From SAR86 cluster bacterium AG-313-N18 (GTDB lineage Bacteria > Pseudomonadota > Gammaproteobacteria > Magnimaribacterales > D2472), in the NCBI GenBank assembly GCA_003283765.1, contig QBVY01000001.1:1-64000 (forward strand): 64,000 bases of DNA, written 5' to 3'. Made by a program: the position numbers and the translations under genes. The notes beneath the pieces were generated by a model. That model was not told where the DNA came from and did no database searches. It saw only the letters and a program-made list of their open reading frames with translations. Shown piece by piece: positions 3,810 through 28,661 of this stretch. Position 1 is the first letter of the stretch. Every line of letters starts with the position of its first letter.

Positions 3810-4700
3810 GTGTATTTTGAGCCCAAGATGTTAAAAGTTCAAACCGGTCAAATAGTTGAGTTCTACTCTAACTCATGCTGCGTAATGTCAGAGGGCAAAG
3901 AATACAAATGCAAAATCAAAGGGAGAATTAACCTTGTTGTGGGCGATCTAGTTGAAATAGAGATATCTTCTGCGAATAGTAGCTCTGACGGGTTAGTTAT
4001 CAAACGATTAGAAAGAGTGACCGCTCTCTATAAATCAAAGGAGAAAATTAAAAAACCAATAGCTGCAAATATTTCACACATTGGTATTTTAGTTACCAAA
4101 AGCCCTAAAACAAATCTTGAGTTTATCGATAAATGGATAACGATTTCAAAAGTTGCCTCAATAGAGCCATTCATAATTTTTAACAAAATAGATCTATTGC
4201 AAAATAGAGCCTTCCAAGAAGACCAAAAAACTTATGAACGCATTGGAATTAAGACTTTTCAAATTTCTGCAAAATTATTCACAAATGTGGATAAGCTAAA
4301 AAAATATCTTTCAAAGAGAACCACAATATTCGTTGGCAACTCTGGCTCCGGAAAATCTACTTTGAGTTCAGCCATTACAGGAAAAGAAATATTATCAAAA
4401 GCACTTTCTAATAATCAAGGTGTTCACACTACCTCTGTTTCTAGTCTTTATCACGTTAATGAAATGAAAATTATTGACTCTCCAGGGGTCAGAGATATTG
4501 GTATTAATCACTTAAAACTAGAGGAAATCATTTTAGGGTTTCCTGAGATAATTAATTATTCTCTAAACTGCGTTTTTCCTAATTGCTCTCATCAAACCGA
4601 TGAAGGATGCGCGGTAATGGCAGCACTAAAGAATGGCGATATTGAAGAAAGTAGATACAATAATTTTATCTTTTTAAGCAATAGAGAATTAAATGAATGA
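3810..4700 (+). CDS. rsgA: Ribosome small subunit-dependent GTPase RsgA
   Basis: Circularly permuted GTPase: FNKIDLL, GNSGSGKSTL, DSPGVRDIG, C-terminal Cys/His zinc motif; start may be ATG 3828. Confidence 0.93.
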   Translation: MYFEPKMLKVQTGQIVEFYSNSCCVMSEGKEYKCKIKGRINLVVGDLVEIEISSANSSSDGLVIKRLERVTALYKSKEKIKKPIAANISHIGILVTKSPKTNLEFIDKWITISKVASIEPFIIFNKIDLLQNRAFQEDQKTYERIGIKTFQISAKLFTNVDKLKKYLSKRTTIFVGNSGSGKSTLSSAITGKEILSKALSNNQGVHTTSVSSLYHVNEMKIIDSPGVRDIGINHLKLEEIILGFPEIINYSLNCVFPNCSHQTDEGCAVMAALKNGDIEESRYNNFIFLSNRELNE

Positions 4701-5427
4701 AAAAACACATTTTGGCTTTAAAGAAATTGATGCTGATAAGAAATCCGAACACGTTGGAGACGTCTTTCATTCTGTTGCTGAAGAATATGATCTGATGAAT
4801 GATGTCATGTCTTTTGGCATGCACAGACTATGGAAGAAAATTCTCATTGAGCTATCTGAGTTAAGCGAAGGCTCTGTTGTTCTTGATATTGCAAGCGGAA
4901 CAGCTGATATTCCAAAATTAATAAATAAAAAATTTAAATCTGTTTCAATGCATGTAACAGATATTAATGAATCAATGCTTGTCCTAGGTAAAGAACGTGC
5001 GATAAACGAAAACTTCTTTCACAATTGTAACTTTACTCTAGCCTCTGGAGAAAGCCTCCCTTATCAAGATAAAACTTTCGATCTAGTCACTGTTGGGTTT
5101 GGGCTTCGAAATTTTACTAACAAGCAGATGGGGCTTGAGGAAATGAAACGTGTCTTGAAACCAGATGGTGTGTTATTAATTTTAGAATTTTCAAAACCAA
5201 CAAATTCTTTTTTTTCTAAGGTTTATGATTGGTACTCATTTAATATTATTCCTAAATTAGGCAAGCTTTTAGCCAATGATTCTGAAAGCTATCAATACCT
5301 TGCTGAGTCAATAAGAATGCATCCTGATCAAGAAACATTAAAGGATTTGGTTCTCGATTCAGGCTTCGACGAATGTAAGTTCTACAATCTTGTAAACGGA
5401 GTTGTTGCAATTCATAAGGCAAAATAA
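4693..5427 (+). CDS. ubiE: Ubiquinone/menaquinone methyltransferase UbiE
   Basis: Class I SAM methyltransferase, LDIASGTADI, VTVGFGLRNF motif. Confidence 0.95.
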   Translation: MNEKTHFGFKEIDADKKSEHVGDVFHSVAEEYDLMNDVMSFGMHRLWKKILIELSELSEGSVVLDIASGTADIPKLINKKFKSVSMHVTDINESMLVLGKERAINENFFHNCNFTLASGESLPYQDKTFDLVTVGFGLRNFTNKQMGLEEMKRVLKPDGVLLILEFSKPTNSFFSKVYDWYSFNIIPKLGKLLANDSESYQYLAESIRMHPDQETLKDLVLDSGFDECKFYNLVNGVVAIHKAK

Positions 5428-5430
5428 AAA

Positions 5431-5928
5431 ATGCGCATAGCTTTAGATAAATTTTTGAAAGAAATAGAGTCATTATCTCCTGGATTTTTGATCAAAATTA
5501 AGAATCTGTATCCACTTGATTTTAATATTGAGATTGATGCTCTTTCGAAATTTTCAATTTCATTAAATAATGACTCTCAAGACTTTAATTTCATTGAGCA
5601 CCCAAATCCAAACTTCTCACTTCAACTCAATATTTTTACAGCCTTAAATGCGTTGAAAAACAAACAGATTCCAACAAAATCTATTTCGGGGGATGTAGAA
5701 AGCGCGGTAATACTGTTAGCTGCTTTAGCAAATATTGATATAGATTTAGAGCTTTTAGTCTACAAATATTTTGGAGATATACCAGCTTTAATGCTAAGAA
5801 AAATTATGTCAAACCAACCACACCAAGAAGAATCTCCATTACAGCAAAGTGAAGTGAATAGAATTCTAAGGTCTTTTAGGGATATCTCGATAAGGCTTGA
5901 TAGACTTGAGCATGTTTTAATAAATTAA
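5431..5928 (+). CDS. ubiJ: Ubiquinone biosynthesis accessory factor UbiJ (SCP2 domain)
   Basis: Position between ubiE and ubiB; SCP2-like sequence with C-terminal helix IRLDRLEHVL. Confidence 0.8.
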   Translation: MRIALDKFLKEIESLSPGFLIKIKNLYPLDFNIEIDALSKFSISLNNDSQDFNFIEHPNPNFSLQLNIFTALNALKNKQIPTKSISGDVESAVILLAALANIDIDLELLVYKYFGDIPALMLRKIMSNQPHQEESPLQQSEVNRILRSFRDISIRLDRLEHVLIN

Positions 5929-7496
5929 TGAATATTCTTTTTTCAGTTCTAGATTGCTTGAAAATTCTCTTTCAGGCCTTTAGGTATGGCATTGTAAACA
6001 TACCGATCGATAACAGCAGCTCTGTTGCTATCAAAACATTTGGTTTATTAAATCCTTTTTTTATTATTAACAGAAAAATTCCTCATGGCTTAAGAATTAG
6101 AAATTTTTTAGAAAGCTTGGGTCCTATGTTCATAAAATTTGGTCAGCTACTATCAACAAGAACAGACGCAATATCCATTGATATAGCAGCACAACTAAAG
6201 GGCTTAACTGATCAATGTACTCCGTTCTCAACTAAGCAAGCTAAAGAAATAATTGAAGAAAGCCTTCAAATTAAAATTAATGATGTTTTTGATGAATTTG
6301 AAGATGTGCCATTGGCGGCTGCATCGTTAGCTCAAGTTCACAGAGCAAAACTAAAAAGCACATCTGAAAAAGTTGTAATTAAAGTCTTGAGGCCTGGAAT
6401 TCATAAACAAGTTAGAAGGAATGTTAGAGTGATGAAGGCTGGGGGCTTCTTAATCAACCTCTTTTACAAAGAAAGCAATAGGCTCAAACTAAAGGATGTA
6501 ATTAGTGACTATGAAAAAACAATCTATAAAGAACTAGATTTAAAAGTTGAGGCAGCAAATACAACTGTAACTAAGAAGAACTTTTCAGATTCAAATCTAT
6601 TATTTATACCAAAAGTGTTTTGGGATCACACTGCAGTTAATGTTTTGACGCTTGAAGAAATTGACGGTATAGCATGCACAGATATCCATGCAATGGATGA
6701 GCTTGGCATAGATAGAAAAACCCTTGCAGAAAATGGGGTAAAGATATTTTTAGATCAGGTATTTAGAGATAATTTTTTTCATGCTGATATGCATCCAGGA
6801 AATATTTTTGTCAGCAAGATTAATGTAACTCAGCCAAGCTATATAGCAATTGATTGTGCCATAGTTGGGTCTTTAAGCCGAGACGATCAATACAATTTGG
6901 CAAGAATGTTGCAAGCTACATTAAAACAAGATTACTACAAACTATCTGAGTTATTCATTGGTGCTGGGTGGGTGTCTAGTCAAACTAATAAAGCCGATTT
7001 AGAGCAAACCTTAAGAGCCACTTGTGAGCCCATTTTTGAAAAGCCCCTATCAGAAATTGAATTTGGAAATTTATTGCTTTATTTATTTGATTCAACCAGG
7101 CAATTCGGTTTATCGGTTCAGCCCTCTTTAATACTTTTGCAAAAAACACTTATACACATAGAGGGCATGGGAAGAGAGATATATGCTGATCTTGATTTCT
7201 GGGGCCTTGCAGAACCCTACCTTGATCAGTGGATTGACAAGCAATTCAGTCCACTTAAGCTCAAAGAGTTTCTAGAGGATAATCATTACGAGATTTTAGA
7301 TAAGGCCTCTTCGTTGCCAGGTGAAATTTTTAACTTGCTTGATAACATAAAATTTATTGCAAACGATGGGAAAAAAAACATTGATCTCATTAAAAGTCTT
7401 GAAGCAAATCTGCAAAACCAGCGAAAATGGCAAAATCTAACTATACTTACACTCATGGGTATTATTATGATTCTAATGTGGATAATGTTAGCGTAG
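5928..7496 (+). CDS. ubiB: Atypical kinase UbiB
   Basis: LGPMFIKFGQLLSTRTD, AAASLAQVHRA, FFHADMHPGNI; C-terminal TM segment. Confidence 0.95.
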   Translation: MNILFSVLDCLKILFQAFRYGIVNIPIDNSSSVAIKTFGLLNPFFIINRKIPHGLRIRNFLESLGPMFIKFGQLLSTRTDAISIDIAAQLKGLTDQCTPFSTKQAKEIIEESLQIKINDVFDEFEDVPLAAASLAQVHRAKLKSTSEKVVIKVLRPGIHKQVRRNVRVMKAGGFLINLFYKESNRLKLKDVISDYEKTIYKELDLKVEAANTTVTKKNFSDSNLLFIPKVFWDHTAVNVLTLEEIDGIACTDIHAMDELGIDRKTLAENGVKIFLDQVFRDNFFHADMHPGNIFVSKINVTQPSYIAIDCAIVGSLSRDDQYNLARMLQATLKQDYYKLSELFIGAGWVSSQTNKADLEQTLRATCEPIFEKPLSEIEFGNLLLYLFDSTRQFGLSVQPSLILLQKTLIHIEGMGREIYADLDFWGLAEPYLDQWIDKQFSPLKLKEFLEDNHYEILDKASSLPGEIFNLLDNIKFIANDGKKNIDLIKSLEANLQNQRKWQNLTILTLMGIIMILMWIMLA

Positions 7497-21549: not shown

Positions 21550-22249
21550 TATTCTGCTAATTACATTTGATTTAGATGATACATTTTGGGATATCAAGAG
21601 CACCATCATCAATGCTGAAATGAATTCTAGAAAATGGTCTGAAGACAGGATTGGAGAAAAAATAGAATGGGGAACATTTGAAGATTTTATGAAAATTAGA
21701 AATGAGTTGGTTAAAGAAGATACATCTCTAGAATATGATCTGGGAATGCTTAGGAAAAAAACAATTGCTCACCATACTAAAAAATTTTTTAAAGATGCAA
21801 AAGATTTAGATGAATTTATTGAGGATGCTTATACTTTTTTTTTAGGGGAAAGACACAAAGTAACTTTTTATGACAACGTGGTTTCAGTTTTAGAACAATT
21901 ATCTGCTGAATATAAACTTGGCGTTCTTACAAATGGTAATGCTGATGTAAATAAATTAGGTATTGGCCACTTATTTGATTTTTCAATTTCTTCTATGGAT
22001 GTGAAAAGCAATAAGCCAGATAAAGCTCATTTTGTTAAAGCTCGTGAACTGTCCCAAATTGATTTTAAAAACACTCTTCATGTTGGAGATCATCAGGTTA
22101 ACGATATTTTAGGAGCAAGAAAACTAGGTATAAATACAATGTGGTTTAATCTTAATAATCTTGATTGGGAGATTGATGAAAATCCACCGATTCAATTTAA
22201 TAAATGGTCCCAATTTATAAAACTGGTAGAAAAAAGTTATGGCAACTAA
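21542..22249 (+). CDS. HAD superfamily hydrolase (YigB-like)
   Basis: FDLDDTFWD, LTNGNAD, KPDKAHF, HVGDHQVNDILGAR; ATG at 21542 preferred over track start 21509. Confidence 0.88.
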   Translation: MSSILLITFDLDDTFWDIKSTIINAEMNSRKWSEDRIGEKIEWGTFEDFMKIRNELVKEDTSLEYDLGMLRKKTIAHHTKKFFKDAKDLDEFIEDAYTFFLGERHKVTFYDNVVSVLEQLSAEYKLGVLTNGNADVNKLGIGHLFDFSISSMDVKSNKPDKAHFVKARELSQIDFKNTLHVGDHQVNDILGARKLGINTMWFNLNNLDWEIDENPPIQFNKWSQFIKLVEKSYGN

Positions 22250-22490
22250 GGATTCCTTTGATGCTTTTGTTAGCATTCTTCGTGACAAAATTGATGGGTT
22301 CTCTGAGAATGTAAATCAACCTAGCGTGAAGATTATCCAAAACGAGCTCAGAGATAAATTTGACGATCTTGCAAAATCACAGGGTTATGTCTCAAATGAA
22401 GAATATGAGGCTCTCAAAGGCTTGGCTGAAAGACTAGAGCAAAGAGTTTCCAAACTGGAAGAATTATTAGACGAATCTAAAACTAAATAG
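22239..22490 (+). CDS. ubiK: Ubiquinone biosynthesis accessory factor UbiK (BMFP/YqiC family)
   Basis: 83 aa, NELRDKFDDLAKSQGYVSNEEYEALKGLAERLEQRVSKLEELL. Confidence 0.8.
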   Translation: MATKDSFDAFVSILRDKIDGFSENVNQPSVKIIQNELRDKFDDLAKSQGYVSNEEYEALKGLAERLEQRVSKLEELLDESKTK

Positions 22491-24791: not shown

Positions 24792-24855
24792 AAATTGTAC
24801 GTTGTGGTTAAGAAGGCATATTATATGTCGTGCATGGCCTGAGATAAATGATCTT

Positions 24856-25440
24856 ATGAAAAATCCTTTCAAAAATACTACTTTTTTATTTGGCATAACA
24901 AAGTATAAAAATCTCCCTGAAGACACTGGAATAGAAATTCTGTTGTCCGGAAGATCAAATGCAGGCAAATCAAGTGCGTTAAACGCTTTAACTGATAATA
25001 AAAAATTGGCAAGGATTAGCAAAACACCAGGACGAACAACAGAAATAAATTTCTTTAAAGTGGAAGAAAGCTTTAAGCTTCTTGACCTGCCTGGCTATGG
25101 TTTTGCTAAGTCGGGTCATTCAAGAAAAAAAGATTGGGGGCCATTGCTTGAAGAATACTTTGAAAATAGAAAAGCTCTTAAGGCCGTTTTAATATTTATG
25201 GATATCAGGCATCCACTTAAACCAATTGATCTCGAAATGATTGAATTGTGTGAAAGCTTTGATGTAGTCTATATTCCTGTACTAACTAAATTAGATAAAG
25301 TATCTAAAAATATTTTAATGAAGACAATACAACAAGTGAGCAAAGCAACCAATGCTCATGAGGTTTTGGCAATTTCATCCCCAAAAAAGACTGGGTTTGA
25401 AAAACTCAGGAAAATTCTGATAGGATTGAAAGATGTCTAA
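24856..25440 (+). CDS. engB: Ribosome biogenesis GTP-binding protein EngB/YsxC
   Basis: LSGRSNAGKSSALNAL, DLPGYGFAK, TKLDKVSK. Confidence 0.94.
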   Translation: MKNPFKNTTFLFGITKYKNLPEDTGIEILLSGRSNAGKSSALNALTDNKKLARISKTPGRTTEINFFKVEESFKLLDLPGYGFAKSGHSRKKDWGPLLEEYFENRKALKAVLIFMDIRHPLKPIDLEMIELCESFDVVYIPVLTKLDKVSKNILMKTIQQVSKATNAHEVLAISSPKKTGFEKLRKILIGLKDV

Positions 25441-25957
25441 TTTGTCTTTCCAGTCTCAAAACTGCGATGTTACGCTTGCTGAAGGTATAGAAGAATATCG
25501 AGCTTACTTACAAGTAAATGGCAAAAAACAGTTAATTGATGCCCCAGGATCAACAATTATCAGGGATCATGATGCAACTCATGTAATTTTTGGTCTTGAT
25601 ACCTCTTTAGAACAAGAGTCTATGTTAGATTCATGGGTATTCCTGGGAACAAAATGGAAACTAAAAGAATTACTTGCCTACAACAAACTTCCAGAACTAA
25701 AGCAACTATATAAAGATTTTTGGCGCGATCCTGGTTACTTTCGACTCTTAATGGTTGCTATTAAACTAGCGCCCATTAAATTTCAAATAAGGAAGCGAGC
25801 TAAGCAAATGAATAAAAAGTGGCCTTTTGTGTCGCCTGATTCTTTAATGGATCAAAGGGTTTGTGACTTACGTGAAGAATTCGGAATCAAGATACTTACT
25901 CCAGCAGAACGAATGGTTAAAAAGCCATTAATATGGTCTGGAACTATAGCCAACTAA
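25433..25957 (+). CDS. Coq4-like protein (putative ubiquinone biosynthesis)
   Basis: RDHDATHVIFGLDTSLEQE matches the Coq4 HDxxH-x11-E metal-ligand pattern exactly; LxxxYxxDFWRDPGYF segment. Confidence 0.65.
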   Translation: MSNLSFQSQNCDVTLAEGIEEYRAYLQVNGKKQLIDAPGSTIIRDHDATHVIFGLDTSLEQESMLDSWVFLGTKWKLKELLAYNKLPELKQLYKDFWRDPGYFRLLMVAIKLAPIKFQIRKRAKQMNKKWPFVSPDSLMDQRVCDLREEFGIKILTPAERMVKKPLIWSGTIAN

Positions 25958-25961
25958 ATCA

Positions 25962-28661
25962 TTAGTGAGCTTCGTTCCAATTTGCTCCTGTATTTGCATC
26001 CACTATTAAAGGAATGTCTAATTTAACTGCACTTTCCATAAGGCTTGTAATATTTTCAAGGGCCTCCTCTGCAAAACCTTTTTTTACTTCAAAAATTAAC
26101 TCATCATGAACCTGCATAATCATTTTTATATCTGAGTTATTATTTCCAATCCAATGATCAACATCAATCATTGCCTTTTTAATAATGTCTGCTGCAGAAC
26201 CCTGCAATGGAGCGTTTATGGCAGCTCTTTCTGCCGCTTGACGCCTTAGTCCGTTAGAATCATTTATAGCAGATACATGCAGTTTTCTTCCAAGTATGGT
26301 CTCAACAAAAAGATTTTTTTTAGCTAATTCTTTTGTAGAGTCCATATATTTTCTTACACCCGTATATCTCTCAAAGTATGTATCAAGATATGCTTGCGCT
26401 TCATGTCGTGGAATGCCTAGCTGTCTAGTGAGTCCAAAGGCAGACATGCCATAGATTAGTCCAAAATTAATTGCTTTAGCACTTCTGCGATGATCTGGCG
26501 ACACATCTTCGAGTGAGATATTAAAAATTTCTGAAGCAGTGGCTGAATGAACATCTATATTATTATTGAATGCATGAGTTAAATTTTTATCTCCAGATAG
26601 ATGGGCCATAATTCTTAATTCAATCTGCGAGTAATCAGCTGAAATCAATACATTCCCTTTTTCAGCTATAAAAGCCTCTCTTATTTTTCTTCCTTCGGGA
26701 GTTTTGATTGGAATATTCTGAAGATTGGGTTCAGTAGAGGAGAGTCTTCCAGTTGAGGTTACAGCTTGTTGATATGAGGTATGAATCCTTTTTGAGACAG
26801 GATGCTTAATATTAATCAAGCTATCTGTATATGTGGATTTTAATTTTGCTAAGCCTCTATATTCGATAATAATTTTTGGAAGGTCATATTCTTCAGCCAG
26901 TCTTTGAAGAGTGTCTTCATTAGTTGAGGGCTGGCCTTTTGGAGTCTTCTTAAGAACGGGCAAATTTAATTTATTGTAAAGAATCTCAACAAGTTGTTTT
27001 GGAGAGTCCATGTTGAATTCTTCTCCCGCCACTTTAAATGCAGCTTTAGATAGTTCTTCAATCTTAATTGCTAGCTCATTTGAATATTCTGATAGCATTC
27101 GTGCGTCAATCTTTGCTCCATTAGTTTCGACCCTAATTAGGGACTGAAGCATGGGATATTCGATAGATTGAAGAAGGTTAATAAGCTTGGGTTGATCTTT
27201 AAGCATTCCATTGAGGAGATTAAAAAGCCTTAGGGTTACATCAGCATCTTCTGCTGCATAGAATGTTGCAGCTGGAATATCTACCTGAGCAAAGTTAATT
27301 TGCTTTGAGGCAGAGCCTACAACTTCTTCATACTTCATAGGCTCATAATTTAAGTAATATAAAGCCATCCTATCTAGTCCATGTCTCGTACCGGTACTAT
27401 TTAGAACATATGACATCAACATGGTATCTCCTAGGAACTCTTCCACCTTAATACCATGTCTATTGAGCATGGGTAAATCAAATTTAAGATTTTGTCCAAC
27501 CAATTTTTTTTGATTTTTTGTAATGGCGGATCCCAAGATTTTTTGAATTTGAGTAAGCGGTATCTGTTTTGGCATCTCTTCATATGAATGTTTAATGGGT
27601 ATATAACAGCCCTCTCCTTCATTGCATGCCAACGATATCCCTATAAGATCTGCAGTCATTGTGTCCAAAGAAGAAGTTTCAGTATCAATAGCAAAGACAC
27701 TGCTCTTATCAATTTTTTTAGCCCATGCTTTTAAATCATTTTCTGTTAAAAGAGCTTGATACTCTTTTTTTGATTTTGGGGCTTCAGGAGCTTCGCTGCC
27801 TGAGCTTCGAGATGAGTTTATCCATGTTTTAAATTCTAGGGATGCGAATAATTTATTTAACTCCTCTTGATTCTCCTCAGCCATAAGCAGATCTTCAAGA
27901 GAAACTTTTAAATCAACGTCTTTTTTTAAAGTAACAAGTTCAATGTTTCTATCTAAATCTGGAATAGAGTCTCTGAAGTTCTGCCCTACAACTCCAGTAA
28001 GTGAATCTGCATTATCAATAATTCCCTGAAGAGTCTTGAATTCACCAAGCCACTTAACAGCAGTTTTGGGCCCTACTTTTGGTACACCTGGAATATTGTC
28101 AGAAGTATCTCCAACAATCGCTAGATAATCAATTATCTGATTTGGATGAACGCCAAACTTTTCTTCAACTCCCACAACATCATAAATTTGATTATTCATG
28201 GTATTCATCATCTTTACTAGTGGGTCCTCAACCAGTTGCATGAGGTCTTTGTCCAAAGAAGATATAACTATAGGCATTCCTTGCTGTGAACCCATCACAG
28301 CCAAAGTGGCGATAACATCATCGGCTTCTACTTTTGGGATTTCAATAACTGGCATTCCCATTGCATTACATATTTCCTTTAATGGAGAAAGCTGCTCTCT
28401 TAAATCCTCAGGCATTGGGGGGCGATTAGCTTTATAGTCTTTATAAATATCATGACGAAAATTTTTGCCCTTAGCATCAAAGATTGAAAGGTAATATGAA
28501 TCAGGGTTTTCCTTGCGTAAGTTGCGTAACATATTTGTAACCCCTTTAACTGCGCCTGTTGGAAGGCCTGTTGAGGTTGTTAGAGGTGGCATTGCATGAA
28601 AAGCTCTATACAAGTAAGAGGAGCCATCTATTAAAAAAATTTTTTTTGCAGGTGTATTCAT
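25962..28661 (-). CDS. polA: DNA polymerase I
   Basis: 5'-3' exo FLIDGSSYLYRAFHA; 3'-5' exo FAIDTETSSLD; polymerase SADYSQIELRIMAHLS, MQVHDELIFEV. Confidence 0.98.
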   Translation of the reverse strand: MNTPAKKIFLIDGSSYLYRAFHAMPPLTTSTGLPTGAVKGVTNMLRNLRKENPDSYYLSIFDAKGKNFRHDIYKDYKANRPPMPEDLREQLSPLKEICNAMGMPVIEIPKVEADDVIATLAVMGSQQGMPIVISSLDKDLMQLVEDPLVKMMNTMNNQIYDVVGVEEKFGVHPNQIIDYLAIVGDTSDNIPGVPKVGPKTAVKWLGEFKTLQGIIDNADSLTGVVGQNFRDSIPDLDRNIELVTLKKDVDLKVSLEDLLMAEENQEELNKLFASLEFKTWINSSRSSGSEAPEAPKSKKEYQALLTENDLKAWAKKIDKSSVFAIDTETSSLDTMTADLIGISLACNEGEGCYIPIKHSYEEMPKQIPLTQIQKILGSAITKNQKKLVGQNLKFDLPMLNRHGIKVEEFLGDTMLMSYVLNSTGTRHGLDRMALYYLNYEPMKYEEVVGSASKQINFAQVDIPAATFYAAEDADVTLRLFNLLNGMLKDQPKLINLLQSIEYPMLQSLIRVETNGAKIDARMLSEYSNELAIKIEELSKAAFKVAGEEFNMDSPKQLVEILYNKLNLPVLKKTPKGQPSTNEDTLQRLAEEYDLPKIIIEYRGLAKLKSTYTDSLINIKHPVSKRIHTSYQQAVTSTGRLSSTEPNLQNIPIKTPEGRKIREAFIAEKGNVLISADYSQIELRIMAHLSGDKNLTHAFNNNIDVHSATASEIFNISLEDVSPDHRRSAKAINFGLIYGMSAFGLTRQLGIPRHEAQAYLDTYFERYTGVRKYMDSTKELAKKNLFVETILGRKLHVSAINDSNGLRRQAAERAAINAPLQGSAADIIKKAMIDVDHWIGNNNSDIKMIMQVHDELIFEVKKGFAEEALENITSLMESAVKLDIPLIVDANTGANWNEAH

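Follow-up and report, generated by a model that had tools for sequence, protein, structure and literature searches.

For a long time it was not known which eukaryotic enzyme decarboxylates the ubiquinone precursor at C1, and the question is still open in many bacteria lacking UbiD. Bacteria of the SAR86 cluster are among the most abundant in the ocean. In E. coli the C1 carboxyl group is removed by UbiD and UbiX, a prenyl-FMN system that is unrelated to Coq4 and absent in SAR86, and which acts at the step proposed below for a Coq4-like protein of this lineage. Replacements of UbiD at C1 have been proposed in other bacteria; UbiN of R. capsulatus, a salicylate-hydroxylase-like flavin monooxygenase (FMO), performs a decarboxylative hydroxylation at C1 and makes UbiD dispensable in air (PMC10626278), while UbiZ of Acinetobacter is a prediction based solely on gene context (PMC4746308). 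Unlike UbiN, the Coq4-like protein is a putative metalloenzyme. The chemistry of COQ4 itself is disputed. Human COQ4 catalyses only a decarboxylation at C1 in vitro with Zn2+, for which the ligands also found in the SAR86 protein are needed, and COQ6 then hydroxylates C1 (PMC7615680), whereas another study, as cited in PMC11495197, describes a single oxidative decarboxylation.

The eukaryotic and long bacterial COQ4/Coq4 proteins (PF05019; structures 6E12 and 3MSQ) are 221-265 aa in length. The SAR86 protein shares with them an HDxxH-x11-E motif, the glycine G54 and an R-x-E-x-x-I C-terminus, and possibly also the fold and likely the working principle, but it represents a short form of approximately 150-180 aa that is devoid of their N-terminal part and that, from a single sequence, is invisible to the Pfam model. 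One short protein of Acaryochloris marina (WP_012166799), named 'Coq4 family protein', falls in the same length class, carries the motif and shares 31% amino acid identity over 150 aa with the SAR86 protein, but is of cyanobacterial plasmid origin.

The coq4-like gene and its genomic context

The window analysed here is a 64,000-nucleotide stretch of contig QBVY01000001.1 of SAR86 cluster bacterium AG-313-N18, whose 1.2-Mb assembly is 73% complete. The coq4-like gene of the short form (25433..25957, + strand) begins with an ATG and codes for 174 aa, as supported by alignments, homology and dN/dS. The sequence of residues 46-62, HDATHVIFGLDTSLEQE, fits HDxxH-x11-E exactly, just as the earlier note on this DNA had claimed. 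The alignments place the putative metal site at codons 46-62 (25568..25618, + strand; H46, D47, H50 and E62, with an invariant G54), while a C-terminal signature, KWPF...LREEFGI, occupies codons 130-152 (25820..25888, + strand) and is evident in both the alignments and the profile-profile comparison. The motif occurs once in the window ORFs that reach 100 aa or more, where 0.025 occurrences are expected from composition; of the 1416 ORFs of a closed SAR86 genome, only the orthologue carries it, with approximately 0.5 expected.

H46, D47, H50 and E62 are invariant down to 28% identity in alignments of 27 and 32 members, the latter of which also has F53, G54, W130 and R147 invariant. W130 and R147 are invariant throughout the short clade, and R147 nearly so when the long Coq4s are included; when 20 diverse members of both forms are aligned, the invariant residues are H46, D47, H50, G54 and E62 only. 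By analogy with human COQ4 (PMC7615680), H46, D47, H50 and E62 are the presumptive metal ligands. The gene is real and evolves under purifying selection, with dN/dS values of approximately 0.09-0.17 against near relatives. One SAR86 genus carries duplicate coq4-like genes, in tandem or nearby, with both motifs intact (L104:4163-4687 and 4706-5233, also G091).

The start of the coq4-like gene is overlapped by 8 bp by engB (yihA; 24802..25440, + strand), coding for a GTPase (Pfam MMR_HSR1), and its convergent neighbour is polA (25962..28661, - strand; assigned from the ORF sequence). This engB-coq4L-polA order is retained only in the genus of the window, and the gene neighbourhood was therefore rejected as functional evidence. 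The presence of ubiE, ubiJ, ubiB and ubiK in the window, previously pointed out, holds in part. Both ubiE (4693..5427, + strand) and ubiB (5928..7496, + strand) are recognised by NCBIfam and by tblastn with the E. coli proteins. The 165-aa ORF between them (5431-5928) can be named ubiJ by position only, with no family match and no tblastn match with E. coli UbiJ, and for a short UbiK-like ORF (22239-22490) tblastn with E. coli UbiK gave nothing convincing. The ubiE and ubiB genes lie approximately 18 kb and the UbiK-like ORF approximately 3 kb from the coq4-like gene; none is co-operonic with it, and these nearby genes are no evidence of linkage.

Affiliation with the Coq4 family

When used alone, the window protein had no match in Pfam, NCBIfam or PDB sequence searches, so that the HMM search named in the earlier note as a check returned no Coq4. 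Likewise, PF05019 placed none of 120 relatives above its cut-off; the best relative reached 17.5 bits against a gathering cut-off of 22.9, and six of 15 members matched the Coq4 model below the cut-off. The published model therefore misses the whole short clade. A tblastn search of plasmids with the window protein retrieved two records, the better being the Acaryochloris protein (E 1e-13), which itself passes the Pfam Coq4 cut-off at 26.9 bits. Judged by these scores, the failure with PF05019 reflects the reach of the model. Comparison of a 27-member profile with five long Coq4s by hhalign gave an E-value of 3e-6 and a probability of 88%, and aligned the HDxxH-x11-E motifs of the two forms with each other and the LREEFGI end with its Coq4 counterpart. 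The short and long forms are only 15-18% identical.

AlphaFold models of two Coq4-like proteins (pLDDT 86.5 and 87.9) were compared with the PDB. The top three matches are Coq4-type structures and the others noise, and 6E12 and 3MSQ are the only entries above a probability of 0.05, but the scores are modest (E ~0.08, TM ~0.4), so that a Coq4 helical fold is tentative. BLAST, profile-profile, fold and residue conservation all speak for the Coq4-like identity first proposed from the motif, and on this sequence evidence the protein can be assigned to the Coq4 family as a short variant.

In the phylogenetic tree the short forms stand apart from the long ones with a support of 100/100 and on long branches. 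The N-terminal half of the long form is missing throughout the short clade. A protein of Aureibacter is also short yet groups with the long forms, and membership of the short clade is therefore not a matter of length alone. Both this protein and that of Acaryochloris, which are above the Pfam cut-off, are also short at the N-terminal half, which is therefore not defining for the family as Pfam draws it. Plasmid-borne Coq4-family genes were encountered in cyanobacteria, Sphingobium and Aureibacter (L262, L263, L264-L270), some of them beside unrelated genes and some in hosts from which ubiquinone is not known. Within the literature collection searched in full text, there was no paper with the phrase 'Coq4 family protein', and the titles and abstracts of papers naming SAR86 and ubiquinone show no evident treatment of Coq4 or the C1 question. 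The finding adds to a known family a short variant with a probable role, from a host in which it was not expected, rather than a new kind of system.

Ubiquinone biosynthesis genes in SAR86 and other bacteria

UbiD (TIGR00148) was found in none of 61 SAR86 genomes, with E. coli, Caulobacter and others positive as controls, and none of the 61 encodes a UbiX above cut-off. The weak UbiX matches are stretches of ORFs of mostly ~400 aa, the size expected of Dfp/CoaBC, which they presumably represent. The UbiD/UbiX decarboxylation genes, for which the earlier note suggested the Coq4-like protein as a possible substitute, are thus indeed missing, and SAR86 has no complete canonical ubi set. The coq4-like gene is present in 87 of the 120 genomes of the order and, by profile search, in 33 of the 36 near-complete SAR86 genomes (at least 90% complete).

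Direct searches of the genome of the window covered UbiD, UbiX, the UbiH family and a salicylate-hydroxylase-like FMO, while the evidence for UbiA, UbiG and COQ7 comes from the closed genome CP097973 (G032). In the latter, E. coli queries identified UbiA, UbiG, UbiE, UbiB and a single hydroxylase of the UbiH/UbiI type (UbiH/COQ6-type), whose gene lies next to a pepP-like one, an arrangement shared with E. coli; COQ7 is encoded at L164:5487-6110 (PF03232, E 1.3e-39), and tblastn with the E. coli queries found no UbiD, UbiX or UbiC. Together with the Coq4-like protein, this set matches by homology COQ2, 3, 4, 5, 6, 7 and 8, with which mitochondria modify the ring. That chorismate lyase (UbiC) was not found in CP097973 (L105-L171) with the E. 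coli protein bears on the source of 4-hydroxybenzoate. Three near-complete SAR86 genomes (G072, G075 and G078) lack UbiD and the Coq4-like protein alike, as do G081 and G084 of the same family (f2) and G033 and G040 (f1, genus g9); the C1 decarboxylase of these genomes is unaccounted for unless it is the salicylate-hydroxylase-like FMO.

Among 370 genomes of the class, the Coq4-like protein is restricted to SAR86 and one other genus, represented by three genomes that are 99-100% complete (G285, G373 and G163). UbiD is absent from these three. This second gammaproteobacterial genus with a short Coq4 (L247, L248 and L249) has genomes of ~2 Mb. In the alphaproteobacteria, eight of 337 genomes encode the Coq4-like protein and 157 encode UbiD; six of the carriers have a close form and no UbiD, and two have a divergent form alongside UbiD. 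The co-absence of UbiD is non-significant over all eight carriers (p 0.29) and weakly significant for the six with the close form (p 0.03), a subset that was selected post hoc and whose members are not phylogenetically independent. Two metagenome-assembled genomes (G487 and G488) contain both UbiD and Coq4-like genes, the latter falling inside SAR86 in the tree, so that mis-binning and true coexistence are both possible.

Proposed role at C1 and alternative explanations

SAR86 carries the Coq4-like protein and lacks UbiD, and the C1 carboxyl group is therefore probably removed in the mitochondrial way. We propose, with a probability of roughly 60%, that the Coq4-like protein is the metal-binding enzyme that decarboxylates C1, oxidatively or not, in ubiquinone synthesis and replaces UbiD/UbiX, a role that is most likely because of the homology to Coq4, the metal, substrate and reaction being extrapolated from it. 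It would be a minimal single-domain enzyme of the family, in which the half with the metal motif is kept and the N-terminal region seen in long forms is gone. H46, D47, H50 and E62 would most likely bind a divalent metal, Zn2+ or another, and the C1 carboxyl would be removed from 3-polyprenyl-4-hydroxybenzoate, whether or not that step also inserts the C1 hydroxyl. The remaining ring chemistry would fall to UbiA, UbiG, UbiE, the one UbiH/COQ6-type flavin hydroxylase and COQ7. Such a role is rendered plausible by the homology, the fold and the invariant motif, by the absence of UbiD/UbiX beside near-universal retention of the gene and the rest of the pathway, and by the parallel lack of UbiD in the other gammaproteobacterial genus and the six close alphaproteobacteria. 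Weighing against it are the widespread FMO, the three near-complete genomes without UbiD and Coq4-like protein, the co-occurrence with UbiD in two divergent alphaproteobacteria and two metagenome-assembled genomes, the family members in organisms without ubiquinone, the lack of a ubi operon link and the negative single-sequence Pfam search.

The main rival, which we regard as rather unlikely, holds that a UbiN-equivalent FMO carries out the decarboxylative hydroxylation at C1, with the Coq4-like protein an accessory or scaffold component of the ubiquinone complex. A salicylate-hydroxylase-like FMO, candidate for the UbiN type (G000:C4:21472-22536, L100:5635-6777 and L149:16509-17642), occurs in 55 of the 61 SAR86 genomes at E 1e-10, that of the window included, some of the weakest matches in this count possibly being other FMOs, and it is also found in genomes without the Coq4-like protein, such as G072, G075 and G078. 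However, five near-complete genomes (G036, G049, G074, G077 and G080) have the Coq4-like protein and no close FMO, the metal motif is invariant though a mere scaffold would not need it, and the kinship with UbiN amounts to a resemblance to salicylate hydroxylase shared by FMOs with many other substrates. There are thus near-complete SAR86 genomes with either of the two proteins alone. At least one of them is present in 60 of the 61 genomes (FMO at E below 1e-25), while about two genomes with neither would be expected by chance; this either-or pattern therefore decides nothing.

Less probable still is that the Coq4-fold metalloenzyme has some other lipid or aromatic compound as its substrate rather than ubiquinone precursors. 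Coq4-family proteins occur in cyanobacteria and Bacteroidota, as well as on plasmids beside unrelated genes, which warns that the family is perhaps not for ubiquinone alone; neither group is known to make ubiquinone. The separation of the short clade from the long Coq4s and the absence of ubi linkage point in the same direction, but UbiD/UbiX are missing while the remaining ubiquinone pathway is present, and the gene is retained almost universally in streamlined genomes. Finally, a chance motif in an unrelated small protein, suggested by the empty single-sequence Pfam, NCBIfam and PDB searches, is refuted by homology to proteins passing Pfam's Coq4 cut-off, with the profile-profile and fold evidence, the expected counts and the motif's invariance across distant relatives against it as well.

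Implications

Returning to the Coq4-like protein as C1 decarboxylase, a wider picture can tentatively be drawn, though we hold it to be somewhat less likely than its opposite; SAR86 may make ubiquinone by the mitochondrial route (COQ2-COQ8 equivalents without UbiD/UbiX), with a stripped-down Coq4 as the catalytic core alone, and the short clade, which also includes proteins of some alphaproteobacteria with small genomes, may represent a bacterial answer to the C1 problem that standard models have missed. A natural 174-aa Coq4 with its ligands intact and without the N-terminal part could separate catalysis from scaffolding. The short Coq4 is also a lead for other marine bacteria without UbiD and, if true, its role at C1 would supply a missing piece of SAR86 respiratory metabolism.
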